Below, one piece after another: positions 1 through 22,884 of a stretch of 64,000 nucleotides of DNA. This DNA comes from Blastococcus sp. MG754426 (GTDB lineage Bacteria; Actinomycetota; Actinomycetes; Mycobacteriales; Geodermatophilaceae): NCBI RefSeq assembly GCF_021699055.1, contig NZ_SSXC01000004.1, forward strand, positions 62,001 through 126,000. The letters are read 5' to 3'. The notes beneath the pieces are model-generated. The model was not told where the DNA came from, made no database searches, and saw only the letters and a list, made by a program, of their open reading frames with translations. Made by a program: the position numbers and the translations under genes. Within the stretch, counting starts at the first letter, position 1; every line of letters begins with the position of its first letter.

Positions 1-229
1 GACGGCGGGTCCAGCTCCAGCACGAGCAGTGTGATGACGATGGCGAGGACCCGTCGTTGAAGGCCTGCACGCGTCCGGTCTCGGCCGTTGTTCCGCCGCG
101 CACCGGAGCCACCGTCGCAGTGGCTCGGAGCCTCATCGGGAGTCCGCCCCCTTCCGTCCAGGCGAGCGACGTGGCGCCTTTGCGGGCAGGCGGTGCAGGC
201 GGCCCGCACCCCCGCCCGCACCGCGCGTG

Positions 230-445
230 TCAGGCCGGGATCGCCGTGACCGCCTCCACCGCCGCCAGGATCGTGGCGGCGACCTCGTCGGGCTGAGAGA
301 CCGAGAGCGCGTGCGAGCCCTCGGGGATCGCCCGGACCTCGCGGGCGCCGGCCCGTTCAGCCATGGACCGCTGGAGGGCGGCGGGGATGTTCAGGTCTGC
401 GTCCCCGGACACGAACCACGACGGTCGCTCGCGCCACGCCGGCAC
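230..445 (-). pseudogene. alpha/beta hydrolase C-terminal remnant
   Basis: The minus strand encodes about 71 residues resembling only the last third of an alpha/beta hydrolase. A segment like SGDADLNIPAALQRSMAERA is followed by EGSHALSVSQPDEVA, which is the usual cap-to-catalytic-His end of the fold (GSHAL gives the His). The nucleophile elbow and oxyanion region are absent upstream, where no continuing hydrolase frame is seen. It is therefore a truncated remnant. It sits in a run of unrelated hydrolase fragments, so the area looks decayed. I cannot say what the original substrate was. Confidence 0.55.
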
Positions 446-655
446 CGCAGCGGGCAGCCCTTCTCCGGGGGCTCACGCGCCGCCTCATCCGCGACGGATG
501 ATCCGGGGCACTCCCGGCGCGCCGTTGCAGGTGGTCAATCGGTCCCTGGCGTAGCCGACGCCCCGCACCCCGGCGTCGAGCTGCCCGACGGTGCCTAGCG
601 GGGACTGGGGCTCCGCCCGGCGCCGGGCCGGCAGGCTTGTGTGCAACGTCCGACA

Positions 656-835
656 TCATGAGGTCCACCCTCCGGCCGGCTCGACCGTCTGCTGCTGCGC
701 CTGCCGGGGCGCGGGCACGTCCGCTGCCGCAGCGACCGCCGCCAGTGCCGTGGCGATCAGGTCGGCGACCGGTCCGGGCCGGGAGATCATGAGCACGTGC
801 GAGCCGTCCAACTCGACGATCTCCGCACCCGGACG
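656..835 (-). pseudogene. second alpha/beta hydrolase C-terminal remnant
   Basis: Read on the minus strand without any start codon, this frame gives PGAEIVELDGSHVLMISRPG and then an Ala-rich helix ending at a TGA at 656-658. GSHVLMISRP is the catalytic-His segment at the end of alpha/beta hydrolases. Nothing hydrolase-like continues upstream: the plus strand from about 838 onward instead encodes a different hydrolase fragment pointing the other way. It is a short broken piece, not a gene. Confidence 0.45.
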
Positions 836-837
836 CC

Positions 838-1015
838 TTGTTGCTGATCAGCACACACGGCTGGCCCGGCTCGGTGATCGAACTGCTCGAGATCGTCGGC
901 CCGCTCGCCGACCCGACCGCGCACGACGGCTCTCCCGAGGACGCGTTCGACCTGGTGCGGCCGCCCTCCCCGGCTACGGCTTCTCCGACGCACCCGCTCG
1001 AGCTCCTCCAGTCCG
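838..1015 (+). pseudogene. epoxide hydrolase-like N-terminal remnant with frameshift
   Basis: The plus frame from about 841 reads LLISTHGWPGSVIELLEIVG followed by PLADPTAHDG and AFDLV, the classical segment around the oxyanion HGWP motif of epoxide hydrolases (EHN/alpha-beta hydrolase family). At about 957 the similarity jumps to another frame, where it continues as ALPGYGFSDAP, so one base is missing. After about 1015 the similarity stops. Both the N-terminal EHN domain and the catalytic C-terminal half are lacking. This is a doubly damaged fragment that starts two or three bases from the end of the opposing hydrolase fragment on the minus strand. Confidence 0.6.
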
Positions 1016-1177
1016 GCCAGGTCCGGCCCGGTGACCACCTCGCCGGCCGGGATGCCGAGCCCCTCGGCCACCGCCCGCCCCGCCGGTGTTCAGCCGACGG
1101 GGATCACTGCACAAGAGAGGCACGCTGAAGGCACGGTGTAGGGCAGAGAAGCTGCTGACCAGGCAGTTTGGATGCCA

Positions 1178-1232
1178 GTAGCCCTAGCCTTCCAAGCTGG
1201 CCATGCCGGTTCGATCCCGGTCACCCGCTCCA
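1178..1232 (+). other. 3' portion of a tRNA-Gly(TCC) gene (probable attachment-site scar)
   Basis: The segment contains an anticodon arm (CTAGC, loop CTTCCAA with anticodon TCC, GCTGG), a variable loop, a T arm (GCCGG, TTCGATC, CCGGT), the acceptor 3' strand CACCCGC, discriminator T and an encoded CCA at 1230-1232. The 5' acceptor strand (expected GCGGGTG) and the D arm are missing; upstream sequence does not resemble them. A lone tRNA 3' half is what remains at the far end of an element that integrated into a tRNA-Gly gene. An intact copy is not in this window, and no integrase is seen nearby. Confidence 0.65.
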
Positions 1233-1318
1233 GGTACTTGCCATCTCGTATGCCGGTCCGCGCCGCTCAGCGGGGCAACCCTGGTCCCTCCGCACATCTC
1301 GACGACCGGCCGCCCGCG

Positions 1319-2068
1319 TCAGCCACGGGCCCGGTCGAGGGTGCGGGAGATGCCCAGGGCGGCGGCCCGCACGCCCGGCGTCACGGCCCGGACGTCGGCC
1401 GCCGACGTCCCCCGGACGACGATCGACAACGCCGCGACGGCCTCCCCCCGTGCGGTCACCGGGGCCGCGACCGACACGGCGTCCATGGTCACCTGCCGGT
1501 CGCTGACGGCGAAGCCCGTACGACGGACGTCGGCCAGCACGGCGCGCAGTCGACGGGGATCGGTGATCGTGAGGGGCGTGTAGCGCTGCAGCGGGACGGC
1601 GAGGACCCGCTCCTGGACATCCACCGGCGCGTGCGCGAGCAGGACCAGCCCCACACCGGTGGGCGGCATCGCGAAGCGGCCACCCACCTGGGTCAGGACG
1701 TCGACGGCCTCGCGCGAGGCCAGCCGCTCGACGAAGACCAGCTCGTCGCCGTCCCGCACGGCCAGCTGGACGTTCTCGTGGGTCACCTCGTAGAGGTCCT
1801 CCATGAAAGGCAGAGCGACCTCGCGGAGTCCCAGCGCCCGGGGGGCCAGCGCACCGAGTTCCCAGACGTGCAGCCCGATCCGGTAGCGCCCGTCGTCGGA
1901 CCGTTCCAGGCCGCCCCAGCTCACGAGCTCGGCCACGAGCCGGTGGGCCGTGGACAGGGGCATCCCCGCCGCGCGGGCGATCTCCGACAGCGCGAGAGCC
2001 GGCCGCGAGCGGGTGAACGCGTCGAGGACCGCCAGCAGCTTGCCGCCGGCCGTCCGATGTGCGCTCAG
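1319..2068 (-). CDS. IclR-family transcriptional regulator
   Basis: A regulator of about 249 residues. The N-terminal winged helix-turn-helix (residues about 5-65, with ALALSEIARAAGMPLSTAHR) is followed by the IclR effector-binding domain (about 75-245). It is the last gene of the Rieske operon, so it probably senses an aromatic substrate or its product and controls the operon. The start is uncertain: no ATG, GTG or TTG lies at the expected place. I used a CTG (2066-2068) that overlaps the reductase stop codon; the next ATG upstream, at 2200, would give a 44-residue extension inside the reductase gene. The family identity is clear and the ligand is unknown. Confidence 0.85.
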   Translation of the reverse strand: MSAHRTAGGKLLAVLDAFTRSRPALALSEIARAAGMPLSTAHRLVAELVSWGGLERSDDGRYRIGLHVWELGALAPRALGLREVALPFMEDLYEVTHENVQLAVRDGDELVFVERLASREAVDVLTQVGGRFAMPPTGVGLVLLAHAPVDVQERVLAVPLQRYTPLTITDPRRLRAVLADVRRTGFAVSDRQVTMDAVSVAAPVTARGEAVAALSIVVRGTSAADVRAVTPGVRAAALGISRTLDRARG

Positions 2069-3027
2069 AGGTCGAGCACCAGCTTCGGGCAGGCCGCCCG
2101 CGAGACGCAGATGAACATCGTGTCGTTCGCAGCCTGCTCCGCTGGGGTCAGCAGGGAGTCGCGGTGGTCGACCTCCCCCGCCAGAACCGCCGTCTCGCAT
2201 GTCCCGCACGTCCCCTCCTGGCACGAGGAGAGCACCGGGATCCCGGCCTCCTCGACCACGTCGAGGACAGACTTGCCCGGCGGCACGGTCAGCGACAAGC
2301 CGCTGGCCGAGAGCTCCACCTCGAAGGACGACGTGAGCACCGGCTCGCCGACGTCCTTGGGCGCGAACCGTTCGAGGTGCAGCGTCCCCTCCGGCCAGGA
2401 GCGGCAGTGCCGCTCGACGGCCGCGAGGAGAGGCTCCGGGCCGCAGCAGTACACCAGCGCGCCGGATGGCGGCTCGCCGAGTACCCGGTCGAGGTCGATG
2501 AGGCCGACCTCGTCCTGGGGGTGGAGGGTGATCCGGTTGCCGGTCGACTCCTCGAGCGCCTCGAGGAAGGCCATGGACCGGCGACTGCGGCCGCCGTAGT
2601 GCAGCTCCCAGTCGGCGCCGGCCGACTCCGCAGCGGTGATCATGGGCAGGATCGGCGTGATGCCGATGCCGCCGGCGATGAAGACGTAGCGCGGCGCCGG
2701 CACCAGCGGGAAGTGGTTGCGGGGACCCCGGACGTCGATGTCCGCCCCCGCCTGCAGTGACTCGTGGACGTGCGCAGAGCCCCCTCGGCTGTCCGGCTCC
2801 CGCAGGACGCCGATCCGCCAGACCGACCGGTCGGCCGGGTTGCCGCACAGCGAGTACTGACGCGTCAGGCCGCCGGGCAGGCGGAGGTCGATGTGGGCCC
2901 CCGGCGCCCACCCCGGCAGTTCGGCTCCCGAGGGGTCGACGAGGTCGAGGACGACGACCCCTTCCGCGCCCGCGCGGCGTTCGGCGACGCGCAGCCGCAG
3001 GTCGGTCTCAGCGTGGGTGGTGTGCAC
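2065..3027 (-). CDS. ferredoxin reductase component of a Rieske oxygenase (VanB-like)
   Basis: A 320-residue single-chain reductase that passes electrons from NAD(P)H through flavin and a [2Fe-2S] centre to the oxygenase encoded upstream. It has the flavin-binding barrel (about 1-105, RQYSL at 56-60), the nucleotide-binding domain (GGIGITP at 119-125) and a C-terminal plant-type [2Fe-2S] domain with C269-x4-C274-x2-C277-x29-C307. Length and domain order match vanillate demethylase and phthalate dioxygenase reductases. The GTG start at 3025-3027 has GAAGGA just upstream. The stop overlaps the likely IclR start. The true substrate system cannot be told from the reductase. Confidence 0.9.
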   Translation of the reverse strand: MHTTHAETDLRLRVAERRAGAEGVVVLDLVDPSGAELPGWAPGAHIDLRLPGGLTRQYSLCGNPADRSVWRIGVLREPDSRGGSAHVHESLQAGADIDVRGPRNHFPLVPAPRYVFIAGGIGITPILPMITAAESAGADWELHYGGRSRRSMAFLEALEESTGNRITLHPQDEVGLIDLDRVLGEPPSGALVYCCGPEPLLAAVERHCRSWPEGTLHLERFAPKDVGEPVLTSSFEVELSASGLSLTVPPGKSVLDVVEEAGIPVLSSCQEGTCGTCETAVLAGEVDHRDSLLTPAEQAANDTMFICVSRAACPKLVLDL

Positions 3028-3037
3028 GGTTCCTTCT

Positions 3038-3322
3038 TCAGGCGGGGACGGTGGGGCGCCGTCGCACCAGCGCAGGGTCGGCGACCAGGTGCGCCGGTGG
3101 TGGGAGGTGCACGTCGGGCGGCTCGGGCAGGGCCGGGCCGCCGACCGGGTGGGCAGGGTGCGCCACGAGCCAGTCCCACAGCAGGATCGGGTCCTCGGCC
3201 TCGGACTCGGCACCGCAGTGGCAGCGGCCGCGGAGCCGGTCGGAGCCCGGGAGCCAGCCGACGCGGATCACCCGGTCTCCGGCGAGCACCTCGCGCGGCG
3301 CGGGCGGAGCGAAACCGGTCAC
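3038..3322 (-). CDS. 94-residue unknown protein inside the Rieske operon
   Basis: A small protein translated by coupling: its GTG start (3320-3322) overlaps the TGA of the oxygenase gene, and it stops 10 bases before the reductase start. The sequence holds RVGWLPGSDRLRGRCHCGAE near residues 20-40, with a CHCG motif that might bind a metal, then a tryptophan-rich stretch (ILLWDWLVAHP) and a proline-rich tail. I do not recognise a family. Its position between oxygenase and reductase suggests an accessory role in the oxygenase system, for example assembly, a metal-binding partner or a small subunit; this is inference from context only. Confidence 0.6.
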   Translation of the reverse strand: MTGFAPPAPREVLAGDRVIRVGWLPGSDRLRGRCHCGAESEAEDPILLWDWLVAHPAHPVGGPALPEPPDVHLPPPAHLVADPALVRRRPTVPA

Positions 3323-4395
3323 CGGACGATCGCGCCGGTCGCCGCGCCGGCCGGGGTCCCGGAGTTCTCGGCCGCGAGTCGGGCGATCATGCGGCGCGCC
3401 GCCAGGCCGCCGGTGTCGATGTTGATCGACAGCTCCTGGTAGCCGTCCGGCTCTCCGGTGAGCACCCGTTCGAGCACGTCCAGGGCGGTGACGTCCTGGA
3501 GGACGACGGTGCGGTTGCTCTCCCGCAGGAACCCAGAGACCTCCTCGTCGTCGAGCGCGAAGTCGCGGGCGACGGCCCAGAAGTCGTGGGTGGAGGACTC
3601 GGTCTCGGGGGTGATGGCGTACACGACCTCGACGTGGAAGGCGTCGGGGTCGGTGCCGTCCTCGTCGGGCAGGACGCCGACCGGCGCGATCCGCGAGTGC
3701 AGCTTGTACAGGCAGGGCGGGGTGAACTCGATGTCCTGCCAGCGGGTGATCCGGCCCTGGATGCCGGTGCTCTTCGCGTAGAACGGCGGGCACTCGGCAT
3801 CGGCCATGTGCCGGCTCACGTAGACGATCCCCGCCTCGTCGTCCACCTCGGTGGTGATCGGGGTCTCGGCGACCTCCGGCGTCCCGATGTAGCCGCCGTG
3901 CAGGTACGTCTCGTGCGAGAGGTCCATCAAGTTGTCGACCAGCAGGCTCGCCCGGGCCGCCAGGGGCTCCATTCCCGACACCGTCGTCCAGCCGGCCATG
4001 TCCAGCCACGGCGCCCGGGGGATCCGGGTGGTGCCGGCGCGGTCGGGGTCGCCGATGAAGACCCAGACGAAGGAGTCCTGCTCCACGACCGGATAGGTCT
4101 TGAGCCGGGCCGTGCGGGGGATGCGGGTCTGGCCGGGGACCGCCACGCATGCGCCGTCGGCACCGTAGGTGAAGCCGTGGTAACCGCACACCACCGTGTC
4201 GCCGACGAGATGGCTCGGCGACTCCGACAGCGGGAACCGGCGGTGCACGCAGCGGTCGCTCATCGCGGTGACGTCGCCGGAAACGGTGCGCCAGAAGAGG
4301 ATGGACTCACCGCAGACGGTGCGGCTGAACAGCTCCCGCCCCACCTCGCGCCCGTACGCGGCCACGTACCACTGGTTCTGGACGATCGACGTCAC
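3319..4395 (-). CDS. Rieske non-haem iron oxygenase, vanillate demethylase (VanA)-like
   Basis: The 358-residue catalytic subunit. Rieske cluster ligands are C49-x-H51 and C70-x2-H73 (DRCVHR and CGYHGF). The mononuclear iron site is visible as DLSHETYLH, giving H161 and H166. A single-component oxygenase of this size with a separate [2Fe-2S] flavin reductase is typical of O-demethylases and related enzymes (vanillate demethylase, phenoxybenzoate and toluenesulfonate oxygenases), so O-demethylation or hydroxylation of an aromatic acid is the best guess. The GTG start at 4393-4395 is preceded by GAGGAG. It is the first gene of a four-gene operon. An inverted repeat about 70 bases upstream may be the operator. 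Confidence 0.88.
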   Translation of the reverse strand: MTSIVQNQWYVAAYGREVGRELFSRTVCGESILFWRTVSGDVTAMSDRCVHRRFPLSESPSHLVGDTVVCGYHGFTYGADGACVAVPGQTRIPRTARLKTYPVVEQDSFVWVFIGDPDRAGTTRIPRAPWLDMAGWTTVSGMEPLAARASLLVDNLMDLSHETYLHGGYIGTPEVAETPITTEVDDEAGIVYVSRHMADAECPPFYAKSTGIQGRITRWQDIEFTPPCLYKLHSRIAPVGVLPDEDGTDPDAFHVEVVYAITPETESSTHDFWAVARDFALDDEEVSGFLRESNRTVVLQDVTALDVLERVLTGEPDGYQELSINIDTGGLAARRMIARLAAENSGTPAGAATGAIVR

Positions 4396-4779
4396 CTGGC
4401 TGCTCCTCGGGTGTCGGTTGGCTGGGCCGATCGTGACCGGCGACACGAGACGCCGGACACACGCCTTCCATGTGGTGGAAGCCGAAGGTGCTCCGCTGGG
4501 CCGGCCCACGCCGTGAGGGGTCGCGCGAGGCGACGCCGGGCAGCAACCCGCGCCAGTGCTTCTCGCGCCATTCGGAGGACGGATCGCTCCACCTCGTCGT
4601 GCGCGCCCAACACGCCCGGTCGACCGAGGAGCGTCGTGACCGAGGAGCCGTTGCACGCCGACGAGGCCCGCCGAACCGCCGGCCGGACGCGCTGTCGGCG
4701 ACCGCCGCGACGATGCTGGTAGCGCGGCACGATCCTCCACGGCCACACTGACCGACGCCGGATCATCGAGGAGTCAGCC
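4396..4779. other. intergenic region between divergent genes
   Basis: This 384-base stretch separates the Rieske operon (minus) from the split-barrel gene at 4780 (plus). It holds the candidate IclR operator at 4465-4481. GAGGAG lies just before the 4780 start. I see no further gene, RNA or terminator in it. Confidence 0.5.
4465..4481. promoter_or_regulatory. candidate IclR-type operator
   Basis: A perfect inverted repeat, CTTCCA-TGTGG-TGGAAG, lies about 70 bases upstream of the oxygenase start. IclR-family operators often have TTCCA/TGGAA-type arms with a short centre, and an IclR gene closes the operon. The match is visible in the sequence; the regulator assignment is inference. Confidence 0.45.
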
Positions 4780-5805
4780 GTGGCCGCAGCCTCCGACGTC
4801 CCAGAACCCCGGAGCGGATCCGTGCCGGATCTGCCCGACCTCCTGCCGGTGCTGGCGCGACGAGCTCTGGTCTGCGAGTACGCCACCCTCACCGGGGACG
4901 GTCGACCGGTGACGTGGCCGGTCACCCCGTACCCCGGTGAGGACGGCGCGACGGTGGACGTCTCGACCGGGCTGACCTACCCGGCGAAGGCCGAACGGGC
5001 CCGCCGGGAGCCCCGGGTCGCCTTGCTGTTCTCCTCGACCAGCGACGCCGAACTCCCCGGCGCGCCCACGGTGTCGGTGCAGGGGCTGGCGACCGTGCGG
5101 GACTCAGCCCTGCAGGCCAACACCGACCGCTACCTGCGCCAGAGCCTGGCGAAGCTGCCTGAGGCCTACAAGGGCATGCCGCCGTTCCTCCTCCGCCGTC
5201 TGGACTGGTACCTGGCTCGCATCTGGGTGCAGGTGACGCCGCTCCGCGTCCTGTCCTGGCCCAGCGGGCGGCTCGATCAGCGACCCGAGAGCTGGCAGGC
5301 GCCGCCGGGCACCGCAGCACCTCCGTCCGATCCCGCCCCCCGGGGTCCCTCGCTGCCCTCGAGGTCCGAGGCGCCGGCGGACTGGCGCCCCTTCGCCGAC
5401 CGGGCCGACCGGCTCGGCGTCCCCGTGCTCACCGTCGTGGACGCGGATGGATGGCCGCTCCCGGTGCGTTGCCGGAGCGCTGAGCGCGCAGCGGACGGCT
5501 ACCTCCTCGTGCCGCCCACCGGCGTCCACCTCACCGGAGGACCGGCCTGCATCACCGCGCACTGGCACGCGCCGGACATGAGCCAGCAGGAGAACGTGGT
5601 CCTGCTCGGTACCGCGGAACCGGCCGACGACGGCCGCGTCCGGGTCCGGGTCGTGCGTGCGCTCAGGGACTGGAGCCTCACCGGCTCACGGCTGGGCAGG
5701 ACCCTCGGCTTCCTCGCCAACGGCAGAACGCTGCGACCGCGACTGCAGCAGGAGGCGATGCGACGCGGGCAGGCGCCCCCCGCCGTCAACCTGCCGAGAT
5801 CCTGA
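4780..5805 (+). CDS. two-domain flavin split-barrel (PNPOx-like) protein
   Basis: A 341-residue protein with two pyridoxamine-phosphate-oxidase-type barrels: residues about 20-150 (with GRPVTWPVTPYPG and PRVALLFSST) and about 195-300 (with VPVLTVVDADGWPLPVRC), joined by a proline-rich linker (about 160-190). Such proteins bind FMN or F420 and act as small-molecule oxidoreductases or haem-binding proteins. The GTG start follows a GAGGAG ribosome site. It is transcribed away from the Rieske operon and may share its control region. The substrate is unknown. Confidence 0.65.
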   Translation: MAAASDVPEPRSGSVPDLPDLLPVLARRALVCEYATLTGDGRPVTWPVTPYPGEDGATVDVSTGLTYPAKAERARREPRVALLFSSTSDAELPGAPTVSVQGLATVRDSALQANTDRYLRQSLAKLPEAYKGMPPFLLRRLDWYLARIWVQVTPLRVLSWPSGRLDQRPESWQAPPGTAAPPSDPAPRGPSLPSRSEAPADWRPFADRADRLGVPVLTVVDADGWPLPVRCRSAERAADGYLLVPPTGVHLTGGPACITAHWHAPDMSQQENVVLLGTAEPADDGRVRVRVVRALRDWSLTGSRLGRTLGFLANGRTLRPRLQQEAMRRGQAPPAVNLPRS

Positions 5806-6096
5806 CCCTCTCCGCGGGGACTGCCGGGTCCGGCCGGTCCTGGTGTGACTCGGGCCGGCTCGAGCGAGGGCAGCTCCGACCGGGGCACGGACCGGGGACC
5901 GACCTCTCGGTCGTTCGGCGGTCCGGGCCGGGAGTCGGCGCGATGGGGGCGATGCCCAGACGGCACCTCTCCCCCGGAACTGGTCGTGCGTGCAGCGCCG
6001 CTGGATCACCGGGACGGAGCTGCTGGAGCCCTCCTCCGAACCGGTCCCGGCTCCTACGATGCAGCCAGCATCCCCGATGACGCTCACGAACGGACG

Positions 6097-6534
6097 GTGC
6101 CGGCCGTGGACCTGCCCATGCTCGCAGCCGCCACCCTATTGGCGGGAACGGCGGCGTACGGGGCCCGAGTGGGAGCGCGCGAGGAGATCGCCGGGGAACC
6201 GTTCGGATGGCGGCTCCCCGGGCGGGTGGCTCGGCACCAGGCATGGGGCTACGGCTCCGGCACGATGGCGCCCTGGCCGATGCCGGTCGCGGCCCTGGCC
6301 GCGGCTGTCAGGGCCGGTGGAGGATCGGAACAGCCTGCCCGGGTGTGCCTCGCCATCGGATCCGTCTGCCTGATCGGCACCGTCGTCGAACCACAGACCT
6401 GGGGGCGTCGCTCCACCTCGCGCGCCGCGACCGTGGCCACGGCGCTGCACCTGCTCTCCGGCACGGCACTCGTCCTGGCGGGTCAGCGCGCCACGCTGGC
6501 CTCTCGCCGCTCCCGGTCGGTGGTCAGAGCCTGA
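6097..6534 (+). CDS. small integral membrane protein
   Basis: About 145 residues with three or four hydrophobic helices (around LPMLAAATLLAGTAAYGA, PWPMPVAALAAAVRA, CLAIGSVCLIGTVV and ALHLLSGTALVLAG). No catalytic motif is evident and I do not recognise a family. GTG codons at 6097 and 6106 are both possible starts with no strong ribosome site. The conserved-looking region begins at the second one. The 290 bases before it hold no gene I can support. Confidence 0.5.
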   Translation: MPAVDLPMLAAATLLAGTAAYGARVGAREEIAGEPFGWRLPGRVARHQAWGYGSGTMAPWPMPVAALAAAVRAGGGSEQPARVCLAIGSVCLIGTVVEPQTWGRRSTSRAATVATALHLLSGTALVLAGQRATLASRRSRSVVRA

Positions 6535-6629
6535 GCGTGCCGCGTCCTGCCCCAGCGGGGGGCCGACCTCTCCGGTGGTGGGCCGGTGGAGTCGGCGGTC
6601 CCCCACGCGGCGTCGTGCCGCAGTGCGGC

Positions 6630-7073
6630 GTGACCATCCTCGACGACGTCGCGGCCCTCGCCGTCCGCGAGGAGCACCTCGCGGTCGTCTCCACGCTGCG
6701 AGCCGACCCGGCCATCCGGTCGTCGGTGGTCAACGCGGGGTTCCTCACCCATCCTTCGACCGGACGGCAGGCACTCGCGTTCGTCACCTCCGGCCGGGTC
6801 AAGCTCGCCGATCTCCGCGTCCGGCCGCAGGTCACCGCGACGTTCCGGCACGGCTGGGAGTGGGCGAGCGTCGAAGGACGTGCGGAACCGGCTGGACCCG
6901 ACGATCCGCAGCCGTGGCTGGCCGACGCCGACCGGCTCCGCCTGCTGCTCCGCGACGTGTTCACCGCTGCGGGCGGCCGGCACGACGACCGGGAGGAGTA
7001 CGACCGCGTGATGGCCGAGGAGCGACGCACCGCCGTGCTGATCGACCCGGTCAGGACCTACGGCGACAGCTAG
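6630..7073 (+). CDS. F420/FMN-dependent split-barrel oxidoreductase (PPOX class)
   Basis: A 147-residue protein of the pyridoxamine-phosphate-oxidase-like fold, as in the TIGR03618-type F420-dependent enzymes of actinobacteria. The order is typical: an N-terminal helix, HLAVVSTLRADPAIRSSVVN, GRQALAFVTSGRVKLADLR, TATFRHGWEWASVEG, and a C-terminal helix with EEYDRVMAEERRTAVLI. The GTG at 6630 places the N-terminus as in the family. It is the second split-barrel gene within 2 kb, and the two may serve related redox chemistry. The substrate is unknown. Confidence 0.75.
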   Translation: MTILDDVAALAVREEHLAVVSTLRADPAIRSSVVNAGFLTHPSTGRQALAFVTSGRVKLADLRVRPQVTATFRHGWEWASVEGRAEPAGPDDPQPWLADADRLRLLLRDVFTAAGGRHDDREEYDRVMAEERRTAVLIDPVRTYGDS

Positions 7074-7135
7074 CGGCGGCACCGCTTCCCACGCCAGGAC
7101 GCTCCACCGTCCCTCCTGGCGGCAGGGGCCGGAGG

Positions 7136-7714
7136 TCACAGCCGACACCCCGGCGGGAGGAGTCGGCGCCGCGCAGCCCTCACCATGCGGATCTCCCGCA
7201 CCCCGCCCTCCACCTCCACCGTCCCGTCGGCGAGGAAGCCCTGCTTGCGGTAGAACGCCTGGGCTCGAGGGTTCGGGTCGGCCACCCACAGCGCCACGGG
7301 CTCTTCCGGGTCGACGACCGCCCGCAGCAGCGCCGGCCCGGCGCCCGTGCCGTGCTCGCCCGCCACCACGTACAGGACGTACAGCTGCCGCCGCCACGGC
7401 GCCCCGGCGTCCAACGGCGGGCCCGACATGGCGATCCCGATCGTCTCGCCGCTCCGCAGGGCGACTGCCACGCGGTTCTCGCGGTAGCGCCCGTCGGTCA
7501 GCGCGGCGGTCCAGAACCGCGCCCGCGCGGCGAGGAAGCCCGGGGCGTCGAGCACCGCATCGGGCATCACTCCCCGGTACGTCTCCTGCCAGCACTGCAC
7601 GTTCACGCGCGCCATCTGCGCGCCGTCGCCGGCCTGAGCCGGGCGAACGGTCAGGCCGGGCCGCGCCGCGGCCACGGCCGGGGTGCCGCCGTCGGCCGTG
7701 CCCGGTGGGCTCAT
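7136..7714 (-). CDS. GNAT-family N-acetyltransferase
   Basis: A 192-residue acetyltransferase. The N-terminal strand-helix (LTVRPAQAGDGAQMARVNVQ, WQETYRGVMP) is followed by a central strand (LYVLYVVAGEHGTGAGPALL) that carries the acetyl-CoA loop, here in the variant form EHGTGAGPAL, and by ALWVADPNPRAQAFYRKQGF, the usual GNAT C-terminal half. The ATG start overlaps the stop codon of the upstream cupin gene (ATGA), so the two are translated as a coupled pair. The acceptor substrate is unknown. The pair probably belongs to the regulon of the LuxR-type regulator encoded next door. Confidence 0.82.
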   Translation of the reverse strand: MSPPGTADGGTPAVAAARPGLTVRPAQAGDGAQMARVNVQCWQETYRGVMPDAVLDAPGFLAARARFWTAALTDGRYRENRVAVALRSGETIGIAMSGPPLDAGAPWRRQLYVLYVVAGEHGTGAGPALLRAVVDPEEPVALWVADPNPRAQAFYRKQGFLADGTVEVEGGVREIRMVRAARRRLLPPGCRL

Positions 7715-8157
7715 CCGCCCGCGAGCGCGACGCCGTGGCGGCTGGTCACCGAGCGGATCGCCGTCATCGACTCCTCGATCGGCCGGTCCAGCGCGACGGT
7801 GCCGGCGAAGTCGGCGAAGAACCGCCCGGCGCCGTCGCCGGAGGTGATCACCAGGAGCCGGGCGGATCCGCCGACGACCCCGAAGGTGGCCGGCGTACCG
7901 GCGGGGACGACGACCAGCCCGCCGGGCTCCACGTCGTAGGACGTCCCGTCGACGACGGCGGTGATCCGGCCCTCCAGCAGGAACAGCACGCCGGCCCACG
8001 GCGAGATGTGCGGCGGAGCCATCGGCCCCGCGGGCGCGACCACCTCGAAGACCTCGAAGGTGCCGCCGGCGTCGTGGACGGTGGCCTTCGCGATGTGGTC
8101 GCCGTCGATCATGCGGTGGTGCCGGCCCTCACCGGGCCGGACGTGCACGGTGCTCAT
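7711..8157 (-). CDS. cupin-domain protein
   Basis: A 148-residue single-domain cupin: strands with APPHISPWAGVLFLLEGRIT (first cupin motif, one His in place) and PGGLVVVPAGTPATF (second motif). The second cupin motif lacks the usual His, so metal binding may be weak or absent. Its ATG start is preceded by GAGGAGGAGAC. A 20-bp motif shared with the LuxR-type regulator promoter lies 51 bases upstream of its start (8209-8228). It is translationally coupled to the GNAT gene. The function is unknown; small sensor or isomerase roles are common in the family. Confidence 0.75.
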   Translation of the reverse strand: MSTVHVRPGEGRHHRMIDGDHIAKATVHDAGGTFEVFEVVAPAGPMAPPHISPWAGVLFLLEGRITAVVDGTSYDVEPGGLVVVPAGTPATFGVVGGSARLLVITSGDGAGRFFADFAGTVALDRPIEESMTAIRSVTSRHGVALAGG

Positions 8158-8208
8158 GTCTCCTCCTCAGGGTGGGAGGACAGCCTCGGGCGGCGGAGCA
8201 GCCGGCTC

Positions 8209-8228
8209 GCGAGTAGTGCGCTACCCGA
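8209..8228 (+). promoter_or_regulatory. 20-bp motif, copy A (candidate LAL regulator operator)
   Basis: GCGAGTAGTGCGCTACCCGA matches the reverse complement of 10795-10814 at 19 of 20 positions. It contains the dyad GTAG-TGCG-CTAC. It overlaps the stop codon of the LuxR-type gene and lies upstream of the cupin operon. A shared binding site for the intervening regulator is the simplest reading. Confidence 0.6.
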
Positions 8229-10770
8229 CCCCGAGGACGTCCGCCAGCGCCGAGCGCTCGGAGACGCCGAGCTTGAGGCCGGCGCGGTAGAGGTGACCCT
8301 CGACGGTGCGCACCGACACGGTCAGCCGCGCGGCGATCGCCTTGTTGGACAGCCCCCGGGCGGCCAGCGCGGCGATCTCGCGCTCGCGGGCGGTCAGGGG
8401 CAAGGGGCGGACCGCGACGGCGAGTGCCGGCGTCCGGGCACCGGACCGGCCGGCCGTCCTCTCGGCGAGGGCGGCGGCGTTGAGGGCCGACCCCGGCCGC
8501 CCGTGCCGGCGGTGCAGGTCGGCGGCCTGGGCCGCCGCGTCGCCCGCGGCGACGAGGTCGCCCAGTCGGGCCCAGGCGTCGGCGGTCGCGAGCAGCGCCT
8601 CGCCGTCCTGGTCGGCCCAGGCCCGGGCATGGGCGAGGGCCACCGCCGCCCGAGGGCCGAGCTCGGCGAGCGCTGCCAGGCGGGGCAGCGCCGCAGCGGC
8701 CTCGCCGAGCTGGACCGCGGTCTGCCAGGCCAGCACCTCGTAGGCGGGGGCGCCCGACTCGCGGGCGAGGTCGGCTGCCGCGGCGGCGTGGCGGAGCGAC
8801 TCGGTCGCCGCCCCCGCCGCGGCTGCTCCCCACGCGAGCGCGAGGAGGTCGTCGGGCGCGTGGAGCCGGTAGGCCGGATGCCCTCCGGTGACGATGCCGG
8901 CCAGCAGCGGAGCCGCCGGCGCCACCTCACCGGCCTGCGCCCAGGCCGTCGCCAGCAGCGTGCGGCAGCGGAACCGGAACTCGTGCCCCGAGTCCGCCAG
9001 CCCGCCCCACGCCTCGCGCAGCAGGGCGAGCGCGTCACCGACCCGGCCTCCGGCGAGGGCGGCGTGCCCGGCGACGACCAGCCCCATCAGCCGGGCCGGG
9101 CCCGGGAGGTCGGCCGACGCGGCCTGCAGGCGCCGGGCCTGCCCGTCCGCCCGGTCCGGCCTCCCGGCGAGGCGGTGCCCGAGCACCTGCAGGTCCGCGA
9201 GCCCGAACCCGGGGATGGCGGTGGGCACCCGGTCGGCGGTCAGCCCACCCACCACCGCGGCCTCGTCGAGCAGCCCGACATCCCCGGTGACGGCGGCGGC
9301 CGCGGACACCGCGGAGGCGACCAGGATGCGAGCCAGGTCGTCGGGCAGCTCCTCGTGCAGCAGCTCCCGGCCGCGGGCCAGCACCGGCGCGACCTCGCCG
9401 CCCGCGGCGGCCAGGGCGAGGGACATGCCCACCACGTGGAGCGGCGCCGCCCCGGTGGCCTCGGCCGCGGCCAGGGCCCGGCGGGCGTCGTCGGGCCGGG
9501 CCAGCGTCCAGAGCAGGTTGCCGGTGCGGTGGAGCTGCGCACGCGCGCGCGTCCCGCTGTCCGGTGCGCTCCCGGCGAGCCGGTCGAGGATCGCCTCGGC
9601 CTCGTCGCCGCGGCTGAGCCAGGACAGCGCCGCGGCGTGCACCAGCCGGGCTGCGGGGTCGCCGGTCGCGGCGGCCGCGCGGGCGAGCCGCTCGGCCAGC
9701 GGCAGGTCGTACACCCGGGTCGCCGCCTCGGCCGCCCGGAGGAACAGCCCGGGTGCCGGGGGCAGATCGGAGTCGAGCGTGAGCACCGCTCCGGGGATCG
9801 GGTCGGTCGCGACGTCCAGGGTCCGCGCGACCCGGCCGCGCAGGCGGCGCGCACGCAGGGTGCCCATGACCTCGCGGCGGACCTCCCCGTACAGCGGGTG
9901 CGCCAGCCTGGCGACCAGCCCGTCGGTGCGCACCAGTCCCCGCTCCTCGGCCGCCTCCAGGTCTGCCGGCGAGGTCAGCGCGGACAGCGTCGCGACCGCC
10001 ACCGGCTCGGCCAGCGCGACCAGGTCGACGACGTCCTGCACCCCGGGCGCGAGGCGGCCGATCTGCTGCTCGAGCAGGTCGACCAGCTGCGGCGAGATCG
10101 CCGGCTCGCTGGTCCACCGCCAGATCCCGGACGCCGGTGCGAACCGGCCCCCGGCCACCTCCCCGGCCAGCAGGTGCCGCAGGAACAGCGGGCTGCCCTC
10201 GGTCAGCCTCCACAACCGGCGGGCGGACCGCGATTCGACCGGGCCGCCGAGCACCCGGGCGACCAGGCCGGCGGTGGCTGCGGCGTCGAGGGGTGCCAGC
10301 TCCAGGCGCGGGAGGTGGTCGTCCTTCCACAGGGACGTCACCGTGTCCGGGGCCGGCTCCCCGGTGCGGAGGGTGACCAGGACCGGCGCCAGCCGCCGCA
10401 CCACCACGCGGTGCAGCACGATCGCGGAGTGCTCGTCGAGCAGGTGCGCGTCGTCGACGGCGAGAACCGGGCGCGGCTGCCGGGCGAGCGCGTCCAGCGC
10501 CCGGCCGACGAGCTCCCCGGCGTCGCCGGCCGGGACGTCGAGCAGGCCGGCGAACGCGCCGAGGGGGTACGGCCGGGCGGCCAGGCTGCCGTGGGCCCAG
10601 ACGACGGTCGTCCCCCGGTGCCCGGGAGCGGCCAGCGCCTCGCGGGCCAGCCGGGTCTTCCCCACCCCCGGCGGGCCCGCGACGACGATCCCCACCGCCC
10701 CGGGCCGGAGAGCCGCCGCAACCTCGCACAGCTCCTCGTCCCGGCCGGTGAGCGGCCACGGCCGCTCCAT
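8221..10770 (-). CDS. LuxR-type ATPase transcriptional regulator (LAL/MalT-like)
   Basis: An 849-residue regulator. An N-terminal AAA/NB-ARC-type ATPase carries Walker A GPPGVGKT (about residues 33-40) and a Walker B-like VLAVDDAHLLDEHSA (about 105-120). A long helical-repeat region (about 330-770) follows, then a C-terminal LuxR helix-turn-helix (PLTAREREIAALAARGLSNK, about 785-849). LAL regulators are ATP-dependent activators that respond to inducer. The gene lies between the cupin/GNAT operon and an SDR gene, and both flanks carry the same 20-bp motif, so it probably controls both sides and itself. The inducer is unknown. Confidence 0.9.
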   Translation of the reverse strand: MERPWPLTGRDEELCEVAAALRPGAVGIVVAGPPGVGKTRLAREALAAPGHRGTTVVWAHGSLAARPYPLGAFAGLLDVPAGDAGELVGRALDALARQPRPVLAVDDAHLLDEHSAIVLHRVVVRRLAPVLVTLRTGEPAPDTVTSLWKDDHLPRLELAPLDAAATAGLVARVLGGPVESRSARRLWRLTEGSPLFLRHLLAGEVAGGRFAPASGIWRWTSEPAISPQLVDLLEQQIGRLAPGVQDVVDLVALAEPVAVATLSALTSPADLEAAEERGLVRTDGLVARLAHPLYGEVRREVMGTLRARRLRGRVARTLDVATDPIPGAVLTLDSDLPPAPGLFLRAAEAATRVYDLPLAERLARAAAATGDPAARLVHAAALSWLSRGDEAEAILDRLAGSAPDSGTRARAQLHRTGNLLWTLARPDDARRALAAAEATGAAPLHVVGMSLALAAAGGEVAPVLARGRELLHEELPDDLARILVASAVSAAAAVTGDVGLLDEAAVVGGLTADRVPTAIPGFGLADLQVLGHRLAGRPDRADGQARRLQAASADLPGPARLMGLVVAGHAALAGGRVGDALALLREAWGGLADSGHEFRFRCRTLLATAWAQAGEVAPAAPLLAGIVTGGHPAYRLHAPDDLLALAWGAAAAGAATESLRHAAAAADLARESGAPAYEVLAWQTAVQLGEAAAALPRLAALAELGPRAAVALAHARAWADQDGEALLATADAWARLGDLVAAGDAAAQAADLHRRHGRPGSALNAAALAERTAGRSGARTPALAVAVRPLPLTAREREIAALAARGLSNKAIAARLTVSVRTVEGHLYRAGLKLGVSERSALADVLGVG

Positions 10771-10794
10771 GGGGGTCAGGCTAGCGATCCCCGA

Positions 10795-10814
10795 TCGGGT
10801 ACCGCACTACTCGC
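10795..10814 (-). promoter_or_regulatory. 20-bp motif, copy B (candidate LAL regulator operator)
   Basis: On the minus strand this reads GCGAGTAGTGCGGTACCCGA, differing from copy A in one base. It sits in the 77-base gap between the divergent LuxR-type gene (start 10770) and the SDR gene (start 10848), well placed to act on both promoters. Confidence 0.6.
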
Positions 10815-10847
10815 AGCCCCGGCGCCGGTCCGCGCGAGGGTCGGCGC

Positions 10848-11720
10848 ATGAGCACCGGATCCGTCCTCGTCACCGGCGCCGGCCGCGGCATCGGCCGGGC
10901 CGTCACCGTCCGCCTGGCGCACTCGGGCTGGCGGGTCTTCGGCGGCGTCCGCGGCGACGTCGCCGCCAAGAGCCTGGCCGCGGAATCCGACCTGATCACG
11001 CCGGTCGAGCTCGACGTCACCGTCCCGGAGCACCTGGTGGCGCTCGACCGCGTGCTGCCCGAGCGGCTCGACGCGCTGGTCAGCAACGCCGGTGTCGCGG
11101 TCGCGGGGCCGCTCGAGACGCTGTCCCGGGCCGACATGCACCACCAGTTCGACGTGAACCTGGTCGGGCCGCTCGCGCTGACCCGGGCCGTGCTTCCCCG
11201 GCTGCGCCGGGCCCGGGGCCGGGTGGTGTTCATCTCCTCGATCAACGGCCGGGTGTCCTTCCCGTTCACCGGGATCTACAACGCCTCGAAGTACGCGACC
11301 GAGGCCGCCGCCGACTGCCTGCGGGTCGAGCTGCGCCCCTTCGGCGTCCAGGTCGGCCTCGTGGAGCCCGGCGTCATCGACACCGACCCCTGGCACGGCA
11401 TGGACCAGCTCATCGACGAGCTCGAGGCGAGGCTCGCGCCCCGGGATCGGGAGCTGTACGCACCCCACTTCGCCGGCGAGCGCCGGTTGACGGCGAAGCT
11501 CCGCACGAACGCCAAGCCGCCCGAGCTGGTCGCCGCCGCCGTCGAGCGCCAGCTGACCCGCCGGCGGATGCGGCCGCGCACCCTGGTGGGCGCCGACGCC
11601 CGGGCGATCCTCGTCATGAAGGTGCTGCTCCCGGCCCGCGGCCTCGACGCCCTCTGGGCCGAGGGCATCGGTGTCCGGCGTCCACGACGGACGCCGGTCG
11701 CGTCCCCGGCCGTCCCCTGA
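10848..11720 (+). CDS. short-chain dehydrogenase/reductase
   Basis: A 290-residue classical SDR. The cofactor motif TGAGRGIGRA is at residues about 9-18, NAG at about 81-83, the catalytic Ser in FISSINGRVSF (about 128-130) and Y-x3-K as YNASKY (about 143-147). The C-terminal part is longer than in a minimal SDR and resembles the sepiapterin/17-beta-hydroxysteroid-like actinobacterial group. It is divergent from the LuxR-type regulator, with a shared motif in the gap, so it is probably a regulon member. The substrate is unknown. Confidence 0.87.
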   Translation: MSTGSVLVTGAGRGIGRAVTVRLAHSGWRVFGGVRGDVAAKSLAAESDLITPVELDVTVPEHLVALDRVLPERLDALVSNAGVAVAGPLETLSRADMHHQFDVNLVGPLALTRAVLPRLRRARGRVVFISSINGRVSFPFTGIYNASKYATEAAADCLRVELRPFGVQVGLVEPGVIDTDPWHGMDQLIDELEARLAPRDRELYAPHFAGERRLTAKLRTNAKPPELVAAAVERQLTRRRMRPRTLVGADARAILVMKVLLPARGLDALWAEGIGVRRPRRTPVASPAVP

Positions 11721-11885
11721 CCCGCGGACCGCCCGTCCTCCGCGCGGGATCGGTGCAGCGAGCAGCCGGGCGACGGTCTCGCCCGGGTCCGCAGCAAGCC
11801 CGCGGCAAGTGCGCCGCAAGCGGGCCGGTCGAGGCTTGCGCACGAGGCCGGGAGGGACCCGGCCCGCAGCACGAGAGGCACCGCC

Positions 11886-12896
11886 GTGGCCCAGCCCCCC
11901 GTCCCCGTCCTCGCCGGCCCGCTCCCGGCCGGTACGCCCGTCCTCGTCATCGGCGCGACCGGCCAGGTCGGCCGCCAGGTCGTCGCCGCCCTGCTGGCGC
12001 GCGGCGCCACCGTCCGTGCCCTGCTCCGCGATCCCGAGGGCGCCGACGTGCCCGCAGGCGTCGCGCGCGTCCGCGGCGACCTCCGCGACCCGGCGTCGCT
12101 CCGAGCGGCGCTGCGCGGCGCCGGGGCGGCGTTCTACGTCTCCCCGCACGAGGCCGACGAGCGCGCCCTCGCCGCCGCCGTCGTCGCCGCGTGCGAGGCC
12201 GAGCGGGTCCGGCTGGTCTTCGTCGGCGTCCACGTCCACGCCCGCAGCCGCTGGCGGGCGGCCCTGCTGCGCGTCGTCTTCGGCCGGATCCTGCCGCACT
12301 ACCGCGGCAAGATCGCCCTGGCCCGCGACGTCGCCCGCTCCCCGCTGCGCCCGGTCATGCTCGTCCCGGCCAACTTCATGCAGAACGACGAGGTGTTCGC
12401 CGAGGAGATCCGCGCCGGCCGGTTCGTGACGCCGCTCAGCGACAGGGGCGTCAACCGGGTGGACCTGCGTGACGTCGGCGAGGCCGCCGCCCGGGCGCTG
12501 CTCGACGGCGACGTGGCCCCCGGTTCCTACGACGTCGCCGGGCCGCGCGCCGTGGGCGGGAGGGAGTCGGCGGCGGTGTGGGCCGAGGCCCTCGGGCGTC
12601 CGGTGGCCTACCTCGGGGACGACGACGAGCTCATGGCGCGGACCTTCGCCCGCTACCTGGACGGGCAGCGTCTCGCGGACTGGACGGCGTCCTTCCGCGT
12701 GCTGCGCCGCATCTCGATGCCGACCTCGCGCCGGGAGCTCCGCACCACGAGGAAGCTGCTCGGCCGGGAGCCGCGGTCCTTCGAGACCTACGTCCACGAC
12801 ACCGTCGCGGCGTGGCGGGCCGCCGGTCTGCTGGACGGCTCACCGGCCACCGCTCCCGGCGCCGGCGCGTCCCCGCCGGTCGGCCTCACCCGGTAG
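11886..12896 (+). CDS. NmrA-like NAD(P)-binding protein
   Basis: A 336-residue atypical SDR of the NmrA/HSCARG type. It begins with the nucleotide-binding VLVIGATGQVGRQVVAALLA, and the strand-turn VRALLRDPEGADVP follows as in the family. The C-terminal half matches the NmrA substrate domain (MLVPANFMQNDEVFAEEIRA, GPRAVGGRESAAVWAEALG). Such proteins sense NADP(H) or reduce quinones. The GTG start follows GAGAGGC. The 165-base gap before it contains several GCAAG repeats but no gene. The 3' end overlaps the convergent DUF2200 gene by 11 bases. Confidence 0.8.
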   Translation: MAQPPVPVLAGPLPAGTPVLVIGATGQVGRQVVAALLARGATVRALLRDPEGADVPAGVARVRGDLRDPASLRAALRGAGAAFYVSPHEADERALAAAVVAACEAERVRLVFVGVHVHARSRWRAALLRVVFGRILPHYRGKIALARDVARSPLRPVMLVPANFMQNDEVFAEEIRAGRFVTPLSDRGVNRVDLRDVGEAAARALLDGDVAPGSYDVAGPRAVGGRESAAVWAEALGRPVAYLGDDDELMARTFARYLDGQRLADWTASFRVLRRISMPTSRRELRTTRKLLGREPRSFETYVHDTVAAWRAAGLLDGSPATAPGAGASPPVGLTR

Positions 12897-13278
12897 CGCG
12901 GGCCTGCACCGCGGTGCTGCTGTCGTGACCACCCCGGAGCACCTTGCTCATCGGCCGCCCCTTGGCGATCTCGTCGACGAGCTTGTCGAGCATGCGGATC
13001 TTGCGCATGAGGGGATCCTCGACCTCTTCCACGCGGACCCCGCAGATGCTGCCGGTGATGAGCGCGGCGTGGGCCGTCATCGCCGGTGCGCGGTCGAAGA
13101 AGGCCGCGAAGTCCACCTCGCCCTCCAGCGCTGCGGCGAGGCCTGCGGCGTCGTAACCGGTGAGCCAGCAGATCGCCTCGTCGACCTCCTCCCGGGTACG
13201 GCCCTTGCGCTCGACCTTGGCCACGTAGTGCGGGTAGACGCTGGCGAACGGCGTGGAGAAGATGCGGTGTGCGGGCAC
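12886..13278 (-). CDS. DUF2200-family protein
   Basis: A 130-residue protein whose core, RIFSTPFASVYPHYVAKVER, KGRTREEVDEAICWLTGYD and ITGSICGVRVEEVEDPLMRK, is the DUF2200 signature. The GTG start at 13276-13278 gives the family's usual N-terminus (PAHRIFST). A short tail of about 20 residues (SSTAVQARATG) is extra. No biochemical role is known for the family. It stands alone, convergent with the NmrA-like gene. Confidence 0.8.
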   Translation of the reverse strand: MPAHRIFSTPFASVYPHYVAKVERKGRTREEVDEAICWLTGYDAAGLAAALEGEVDFAAFFDRAPAMTAHAALITGSICGVRVEEVEDPLMRKIRMLDKLVDEIAKGRPMSKVLRGGHDSSTAVQARATG

Positions 13279-13543
13279 GGCGGGGCTCCCGGGGTGCAGC
13301 TGCAGCGGCCTGGTCCCCGGGACGCTACGCCCCTCGACCGACCTGACCAGCAGCACGACCTGCCCTGGTTCCCCGCGCCTCGCGTCGGCGGCGGCCACGG
13401 TCCCTCCCGGGGCAGGGTCGGAGGTCCGTCCGGGCCAGGGTCCATCGGCGGTTACCCGCCCCGGCGGCCTCGGCCACGCTGACCCTGCGGGAGGCTCGCC
13501 CGGGCCGAGGCGCGAGCCCGCGTCGAGCACCGGGGAGGCCGCC

Positions 13544-13756
13544 GTGCGGGTACGGGTGGGTGACCGGCTGGTGGTGCACAGCCGGCGGGTGGACGACGGC
13601 GTCCGCGAGGGGGAGGTCGTCGAGATCCCCCACGCCGACGGCAGCCCGCCCTACGTGGTCCGGTGGCTCGACGACCAGCGCACCAGCCTCGTCTTCCCCG
13701 GCCCGGACGTGAGTCTCCGCCCCGACGAGCACGCGACCGAGCGGGCGGGGGGCTGA
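13544..13756 (+). CDS. DUF1918-family small protein
   Basis: A 70-residue protein with the DUF1918 pattern: RVRVGDRLVVHSRRV, REGEVVEIP and PPYVVRWLDDQRTSLVFPGP, an SH3-like small beta fold common in actinobacteria. A GGGGAGG ribosome site lies directly before the GTG start at 13544. The function is unknown. It is a single-gene unit. Confidence 0.8.
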   Translation: MRVRVGDRLVVHSRRVDDGVREGEVVEIPHADGSPPYVVRWLDDQRTSLVFPGPDVSLRPDEHATERAGG

Positions 13757-13826
13757 CGCGCCCCGCACCGCCGGTCAGCGGCGAGCGCGGTCGCGGAGCG
13801 GGCCGGAGCGGCCGGGCGGGGCGGCG

Positions 13827-14015
13827 CTAGTCGGAGACCTCCTGGGCCTCCGGGTCCCCGGCGGAGACGAGGACCCGCTCGGCCATCGCGGCTTCCAGGC
13901 TCTCGGTCAGCAGGTAGGACACGCCGGCGACGAACGGCGCCAGCGCCCACACGGCGAGGTGCGAGAAGAAGGCACTCAGCAGCGTCGCGGCGCCCAGCCC
14001 GACCAGGACCGACAC
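13827..14015 (-). CDS. small two-helix membrane protein downstream of the FNT channel
   Basis: About 62 residues with two hydrophobic helices (VLVGLGAATLLSAFFSHLAV and WALAPFVAGVSYLLTESL) and an acidic tail ending AGDPEAQEVSD. The GTG at 14013-14015 is preceded by GGAGG at good spacing; an upstream GTG at 14033 would add six residues. It starts 22 bases after the FNT channel gene ends, on the same strand, so the two are probably co-transcribed. I do not recognise a family. Confidence 0.55.
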   Translation of the reverse strand: MSVLVGLGAATLLSAFFSHLAVWALAPFVAGVSYLLTESLEAAMAERVLVSAGDPEAQEVSD

Positions 14016-14037
14016 GCTGCCTCCGCGCCTCACGAGG

Positions 14038-14814: not shown

Positions 14815-15035
14815 GGGTGCACGCTCCTCTCACGGAGGACGCCCTCCCGCGATGCACGGACGCCCGTCCTCGCGCCGGGTGCCGTCGTCGACCCGGCCTC
14901 CTGCTCCCTCGGGTTCTGGGAGCGCGCAGAACCTGCCCGACGGGTCCGGCGGTCAACCCACGATCCCGGTCGCCGGTATCCGGCTCGACCGCTGTCTCCG
15001 GGCGGCCCGGCGCCTCCCGCGGCGCGGACGCGGCG

Positions 15036-15623: not shown

Positions 15624-15627
15624 GGGA

Positions 15628-17340: not shown

Positions 17341-17426
17341 GTAGCATGCCTAGGGCGTCACCGCACGGGGGTCAAGGGACATCGGGCTCACGCTCGTCCC
17401 GTCCTCCACCGCACCGAGGTCTGATC

Positions 17427-18751: not shown

Positions 18752-18764
18752 CGGCGTGACCCCG

Positions 18765-19181: not shown

Positions 19182-19282
19182 GGCGGTCCCTTCCGGGAGG
19201 GGTGGGGACGACGGCATTGTGCCGCTGATGACCGGCCGGCGGGACCCGTGCGGCGCCCCCGGCCCCGGGCGGAGGGAGAGAC

Positions 19283-19606: not shown

Positions 19607-19645
19607 CCGGCGGAACCGTTTCCGCCGCCACCCCGTCCACCGGGC

Positions 19646-20518
19646 ATGGACGCCGTTCCCGCCCGCCTCCTCGCCCCGGCCGTGCTCGCCCTCGCCCTGC
19701 TCGCCGGCTGCACGGGCCCCTCCGGCGGCGAGTCGGGGAGCGCCGACGGCGCCACCGGCGGTGGCGCGGTCGCCCCCGTCCCCGCTCTCCCCGGCAGCGG
19801 CGAGGCCCCCGCCGACCGGCAGGTGGTCGCCACCGCCCACACCTCGGTGTCGGTCGCCGACCCGGCCGACGGCGCCCAGCAGGTCAGCGAGCTCGTGGAG
19901 TCCGCCGGGGGGCGCGTCGACGAGCGCACCGTGCAGTCCACCTCCGGCCCGGACGGCGTCGAGGGTGCGGTCGCCGACCTCGTCGTGCGGGTGCCCGCCG
20001 ATGCGCTGACCGGCGTCCTCGCCGACCTGGCCGAGCTCGGCGACGTCGAGGACGTGTCCGTGTCCCGCTCCGACGTGACCGCCACCGTCGTCGACCTCGA
20101 CGCGCGCATCTCCGCGCTGCAGGCCTCGGTGGCGCGGCTGCTCGCCCTGCTGGCGGACGCCGCCACCACCGAGGCCCTGCTCGAGGCCGAGCAGGCGCTC
20201 TCCCAGCGCCAGCAGGACCTCGAGTCGCTGCAGTCGAGGCGGGCCGCGCTGGCCGACCAGGTGGAGCTCTCGACGCTCCGGGTGCACCTGCAGCCCTTCG
20301 GCGTCGCACCCCCCGGCGGGCCAAACGGCTTCCTGGACGGGCTGGCCACCGGCTGGCGGTCCCTGGTCGCCGTCGCGGGCGGGACGGTCGTGGTGATCGG
20401 CGTCGTCCTGCCGTGGCTGGCGCTCACCGCGCTGGTCGCCGCCGCGGTGCTGGTGCCGCTCCGCCGGTCGCGGCGGCGGGCCGCTGCCCCGCCCCCGGCG
20501 GCGGCCACCGAGGGCTGA
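19646..20518 (+). CDS. DUF4349-family lipoprotein
   Basis: A 290-residue lipoprotein. The signal peptide ends in the lipobox LLAGC (Cys at about residue 22). After a low-complexity Gly/Ala/Pro linker comes the DUF4349 core (about 60-215), with paired strands (VVATAHTSVSVADPADGAQQ, LVVRVPADALTGVLADLAEL) and a coiled coil (about 150-210). A C-terminal membrane helix (about 235-270) and a basic tail follow. It is probably attached to the outer face of the membrane at its N-terminus and anchored again at its C-terminus. The function is unknown. Confidence 0.82.
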   Translation: MDAVPARLLAPAVLALALLAGCTGPSGGESGSADGATGGGAVAPVPALPGSGEAPADRQVVATAHTSVSVADPADGAQQVSELVESAGGRVDERTVQSTSGPDGVEGAVADLVVRVPADALTGVLADLAELGDVEDVSVSRSDVTATVVDLDARISALQASVARLLALLADAATTEALLEAEQALSQRQQDLESLQSRRAALADQVELSTLRVHLQPFGVAPPGGPNGFLDGLATGWRSLVAVAGGTVVVIGVVLPWLALTALVAAAVLVPLRRSRRRAAAPPPAAATEG

Positions 20519-20583
20519 CCCGCGCCGGGCGACGTCGAGCCGGGTGCGCACGCGGCTGGACGGCGGCCGGCGCGGCTCGACCC

Positions 20584-22725: not shown

Positions 22726-22808
22726 GGCAGCGGCTCCGATCCGGGGCGGCCGCCGCGCCCGTCCGCGCACGGTCAGCCGGCCCCGGCGGACGAGTGTCCG
22801 AGCCCCCC

Positions 22809-22828: not shown

Positions 22829-22884
22829 GGGGCGCGCTATACGTTCGAGTGGGACGAAGGCACGTCACTGCTGCGCGGCCGGAA

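Follow-up and report, generated by a model that had tools for sequence, protein, structure and literature searches.

Features of the locus

The window, that is, the whole 64,000-nucleotide stretch analysed here (C148:62001-126000), comes from the 4.7-Mb draft genome of Blastococcus sp. MG754426. Near its left end lies a piece of a tRNA-Gly(TCC) gene, whose neighbours are listed in Table 1. A sequence-only reading had taken a 55-base segment (1178-1232) for the 3' part of such a gene. The identification stands, although the match itself extends over 53 bases, 1180-1232, where positions 22-74 of the tRNA align with 98 % identity and a single mismatch. Within it, window 1186-1232 (C148:63186-63232) is a perfect 47-base match to the 3' part of the intact gene and constitutes the attachment core. 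The resemblance is not due to chance, since the ungapped local score is 47 as compared to at most 15 in ten strands of shuffled sequence. That reading had also described the 5' half as missing, and indeed the 27 bases preceding the fragment bear no resemblance to the 5' half of tRNA-Gly. Neither ARAGORN nor Rfam, permissive threshold included, detects a complete tRNA or any other known RNA at the fragment, so that a whole tRNA at this site was rejected.

The 1.2 kb on the left of the fragment hold gene fragments only, as had been noticed from the letters. A TMEM175 gene contributes its 5' end (first codon at window 23, minus strand) and an alpha/beta-hydrolase a C-terminal remnant (window 233-445, minus strand; Pfam, E 9e-6), while no other tested frame rises above the Pfam cut-off. 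An integrase relic was found neither in this stretch nor elsewhere on contig C148. The stretch is the decayed end of a catabolic module of 21.4 kb that lacks an integrase. The module is bounded by identical 47-base cores at C148:41715 and C148:63186, and its annotated genes are catabolic (IclR, ring-hydroxylating dioxygenase, TctA/TctC transporter, nitrile hydratase). Its two flanking att sites, a contig C148 on which no integrase was found and its catabolic annotation make it a putative CIME. Base composition (71.8 % G+C in the module vs 75.5 % in the right flank) was considered as proof of foreign origin and set aside as weak.

Table 1. Coordinates of the features at and around the tRNA-Gly(TCC) fragment
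Feature	Window position	Strand	Basis
Decayed right end of the 21.4-kb catabolic module C148:41762-63185	1..1116		Pfam frame scan, gene calls
P-arm repeat GAGGCACGCTGAAGGCACG, putative integrase arm-binding site, 69 bp before the core	1117..1135	+	Genome pattern scan; other orphan cores have it at the same position
Orphan 3' part of tRNA-Gly(TCC), positions 22-74	1180..1232	+	Alignment
Shortened left-end (P') arm of the next module	1233..1292	+	Local alignment to relatives' arms
Accessory catabolic operon: IclR regulator, ferredoxin reductase with Fer2 domain, VanA-like Rieske oxygenase	1319..4395	-	Pfam
Accessory stretch: cupin, LuxR-type regulator	7708..10845	-	Pfam; in G020 between two tRNA-Gly fragments
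DUF4349 lipoprotein gene, start of chromosomal synteny with many genus mates	19646..20518	+	Pfam, synteny comparison

Arm repeats on both sides of the core

An arm-type tandem repeat, AAGGCACGCNGAANGCACG, lies 69, 68 and 69 bp upstream of the cores at the window, C148:41715 and C170:85648, respectively. At up to one mismatch it occurs nowhere else in the genome beyond these three orphan cores, and at up to two mismatches a single place is added, 116 bp after the intact tRNA gene. With three mismatches allowed, the backwards control is about as frequent (12 against 11), so that only the four best places are meaningful. Among 23 genomes of the genus, an upstream arm at -66 to -70 accompanies 25 of 39 orphan copies and none of the 23 intact tRNA-Gly genes; a related repeat stands at +115 or +116 of 13 of these intact genes. 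The same contrast between orphan and intact copies emerged from a scan of named genomes, with arm-bearing orphans in Blastococcus, Modestobacter and Geodermatophilus. Moreover, the exact arm-plus-core pattern is present in 7 of 96 genomes of the family, from four genera, and its backwards control never matched. Such a combination of a core with arm-type sites is the anatomy of integrase attachment sites. Judging from their position the arm repeats probably bind the integrase, and the AAGGCACG repeats are candidate integrase arm sites.

These observations bear on the idea that the fragment is merely a former second tRNA-Gly(TCC) gene which lost its 5' half by deletion, no mobile element being involved. 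A 3' half standing alone with decayed DNA on its left is what one would expect in this case. However, in most orphans of the genus the break falls at almost the same position of the tRNA and the same arm repeat is found at the same distance, and a recently transferred composite (see below) ends exactly at another orphan copy, which makes such an origin highly improbable.

On the other side of the core, window 1233-1292 resembles the left-end arm located after the intact tRNA genes of relatives, with a local score of 37; the controls, 300 shuffles and 300 random window stretches, gave at most 16. The repeats expected at +116 are absent after the window's core, and the right arm amounts to 60 bp only. 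Since a P arm lies on the left and a shortened left-end arm on the right, the fragment connects two modules, one by its right end and the other by its left end. The sole distal end of a single island was rejected as a description of the site: several cores occur in succession, and element arms are found on both sides of the fragment. Of the original proposal, an island border at a tRNA attachment site, the border is thus retained, together with an intact tRNA, an integrase and a loss of synteny, and the single distal end is replaced by an internal junction.

Module ends of a different kind also occur. In one genome, G009, seven tRNA-Gly cores lie on one strand within 164 kb (G009:C1:1303078-1467239), and several of them are followed by a short inverted repeat (GTGTCGCGGGACACC...) in place of the usual left-end arm. 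This second type of module end is also found after C148:41761.

The intact tRNA gene and a recently spread composite

The sole intact tRNA-Gly(TCC) gene of the genome is located at C170:30167-30240. Besides the window copy, orphan 3' halves are present at C148:41715-41761, an identical 47-mer 21.4 kb to the left, and at C170:85648, where 40 of 47 bases match. As in other tRNA-anchored islands, one end is occupied by an intact tRNA and the opposite one by a directly repeated copy of its 3' end; the DNA between the ends varies from strain to strain, and that outside is conserved chromosome.

Comparison with G001, the genome of another species, shows 99.6 % identity over C170:45368-86878, most 5-kb steps being at 100 %. 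The stretch C148:1-41762 comes next in the same order (97.7 %), and the match ends at the orphan core C148:41761; the gap between the two stretches consists largely of contig C35. The chromosomal flanks shared with G001 are mostly 79-88 % identical. In G065, which belongs to another genus of the same family, a single 4.7-Mb contig carries in succession the C170:1-17209 flank (mostly 73-88 % identical), the intact tRNA-Gly(TCC), the left-end arm, a conjugative element (99.9-100 % over most of its length) and C148:1-41761 (97.6 %), and an orphan core at a distance of 107 kb from the tRNA closes the block. The two contigs are separate in the assembly under study and their order, C170 before C148, rests on colinearity with G001 and G065. 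The arrangement in G065 supports the succession tRNA, conjugative element, C170:85648 core, C148:41715 core, 21.4-kb module and window core. To judge from these identities, a composite of about 107 kb, largely 99.6-100 % identical, has spread recently between species and genera. The intact tRNA-Gly(TCC) and the integrase that an island border had been expected to have nearby are both present, on the left, the tRNA being about 130 kb off by colinearity with other genomes; conserved gene order with relatives breaks off and does not run through window 1200.

Might this layout be an artefact of a fragmented assembly or of contamination? Both the division of the genome into 224 contigs and the 100 % identity of long stretches to another species would fit such a view. 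Yet the same order is seen on the 4.7-Mb contig of G065 and in G001, C170 and C148 also hold ordinary Blastococcus chromosome with the breaks falling at the cores, and the stated contamination is 0.7 %. An artefact can hardly be upheld.

In G001, the block and the intact tRNA share a contig at a distance of over 150 kb, and the elements may therefore sit at other places as well. Orphan tRNA-Gly 3' halves are borne by the G001 contigs C4, C6, C11 and C13, those on C11 being at least 175 kb from the intact gene. The scatter hints at secondary sites of attachment or at rearrangement.

A conjugative element with a tyrosine integrase

Contig C170 encodes a tyrosine integrase (Phage_integrase, C170:79533-80762) after an HTH_17 excisionase-like gene. 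The same stretch contains a TrwC relaxase, a TraG/TraD coupling protein (TraG-D_C/T4SS-DNA_transf) and a T2SSE ATPase, so that C170:45-81 kb has the gene set of an ICE, namely integrase, relaxase, coupling protein and conjugation apparatus, the latter represented among the assigned genes by the ATPase. Relatives of the integrase occur inside the arrays of six genomes, at 85-100 % in G001, G009, G014 and G018, at 62 % in G020 and at 40 % in G007; none was found on C148. The C170 enzyme is the best candidate for having made the junction in the window and its kindred junctions.

The core immediately following this integrase (C170:80820-80860) is not derived from tRNA-Gly. It corresponds to the 3' end of tRNA-His(GTG) plus a terminator-like hairpin, and is 95 % identical over 40 bases to the intact tRNA-His(GTG) gene at C219:9808. 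In G009, an integrase 88 % related to the C170 enzyme abuts a tRNA-Gly-like core. The role of the C170 integrase at tRNA-Gly hence rests on G009 and G020, its own adjoining core being tRNA-His, and the conjugative element may have changed its target.

G020 also displays a peculiar arrangement of the target gene. The tRNA-Gly 5' half (positions 1-38) is found at the native place (G020:C1:521214-521251), and an intact tRNA-Gly lies 37 kb further on (G020:C1:558762-558835), directly after an integrase gene and in a polarity opposite to that of the other genomes.

The right side of the fragment

The accessory catabolic operon starts 27 bases past the shortened left-end arm. It is missing at this place in the syntenic genome G019, and an 81 % identical copy exists elsewhere in G007. 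The earlier suggestion that this operon could be the cargo of the island is right as to its accessory nature; nevertheless, the operon lies beyond the junction, and a second core bounding it on the right was not found. No tRNA-Gly fragment above chance level is detectable in window 1233-19646 that could serve as a right boundary. The region between the arm and the chromosomal flank (window 1293-19646) is a mosaic, and 15.1-22.9 kb is common to G020, in the same order. A degenerate tRNA-Gly fragment precedes the DUF4349 gene by 160-200 bp in G007, G022 and G005.

In G019, an orphan core (G019:C201:10647-10700) is fused at window 5653, within a gene whose copy in the window (4822-5805) is complete. 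This fusion points to a deletion in G019 from the core into the gene, and to deletions as a further force shaping such junctions. It is therefore conceivable that the site is indeed an island border but owes its present flanks to later deletions, or to homologous recombination between orphan cores, and not to two integrations. The truncation of the right arm after 60 bp is consistent with this, as are the G019 fusion, the 52 bases of which also follow C148:41716 here, and the short homology provided by the identical 47-mers. Against it stand a complete left arm at its proper site and a core without mismatch; we regard this course of events as a serious minority possibility, appreciably less probable than a junction left by integration.

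In G005, the chromosomal flank (window 19357-20502) is present twice, at G005:C37:43112-44283 and 20561-23802. The copy after the intact tRNA-Gly is 83 % identical, that after the degenerate fragment 89 %. The duplication gives the impression that an element took up DNA of the flank.

A probable junction in a tandem array

We interpret window 1117-1292 as an attachment-site junction between modules in an array where integrative elements follow one another in tandem behind tRNA-Gly(TCC), with a probability of roughly 0.88. In the proposed mechanism, a tyrosine integrase, perhaps of the C170 type, would carry out recombination between the core of an element, which duplicates the 3' half of the tRNA, and the 3' terminus of the tRNA gene. 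The whole tRNA would be kept on the left, and an orphan 3' half beside the element's P arm would be left at the far end. Repeated insertion would then give rise to stacked elements with orphan halves between them, the order of integration and the crossover point being what we infer from this scheme. The orphan half in the window represents the right end of the 21.4-kb module and adjoins the cut-down left arm of a further module. Since no integrase was found in either module, both would be fixed, or movable only with the help of a neighbour.

A broader generalization can be imagined, in which a single family of tyrosine integrases serves a capture array at tRNA-Gly(TCC) throughout the Geodermatophilaceae. 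Numerous short cargo modules lacking an integrase (about 1.5 to 21 kb) would have core and arms in common, and their stacking and exchange would take place in trans, so that the array would work somewhat like an integron anchored at a tRNA. For the time being this is a speculative proposal and one that we consider doubtful.

Relation to known systems

Stacked islands behind a single RNA gene are already known, and the Blastococcus array has the same layout made of other parts. The type case of tandem accretion of ICEs and CIMEs is provided by the ICESt1-related elements of Streptococcus thermophilus. In this process elements are stacked by site-specific recombination, with integrase-less members between att sites. 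The Blastococcus array likewise comprises stacked elements and integrase-less members flanked by att sites, but host, target and integrase are different, and cis-mobilisation of the Blastococcus module is putative. ICEclc of Pseudomonas carries catabolic cargo, is inserted in the 3' end of a tRNA-Gly gene and uses a tyrosine integrase; it resembles the Blastococcus elements by these general features, in an unrelated host.

The ssrA genomic islands of Dehalococcoides lie in tandem downstream of one RNA gene, with copies of its 3' end between them and conserved flanking motifs (PMC3146451). They carry catabolic cargo, some lack an integrase, and they have been discussed in terms of cis-mobilizable elements and accretion (PMC3146451, where Pavlovic 2004 is cited for ICE and CIME accretion). 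The layout of stacked islands, 3'-end copies, catabolic cargo and some integrase-less members is thus shared. In contrast, Dehalococcoides makes use of the tmRNA gene, a 20-bp repeat and a serine recombinase, whereas in Blastococcus the target is tRNA-Gly(TCC), the core measures about 47 bp, the integrase is of the tyrosine type and a conjugative element is present. With tRNA-Gly(TCC) as target and a tyrosine integrase, the Blastococcus array does not belong to the ssrA islands proper, which are defined by integration at ssrA by a serine recombinase. No description of a tRNA-Gly array in the Geodermatophilaceae was found in the literature searched, most subscription papers being outside its scope.

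The tRNA-Gly island array recurs throughout the genus Blastococcus. In this genus and its relatives, the site is a hotspot for the gain, loss and onward transfer of catabolic genes and of a conjugative element. The fixed arm repeat makes such junctions findable by a simple pattern search. As far as the sequence comparisons tell, the transfer of the block of about 107 kb across species and genus boundaries is so recent that 100 % identity is still seen over long stretches.
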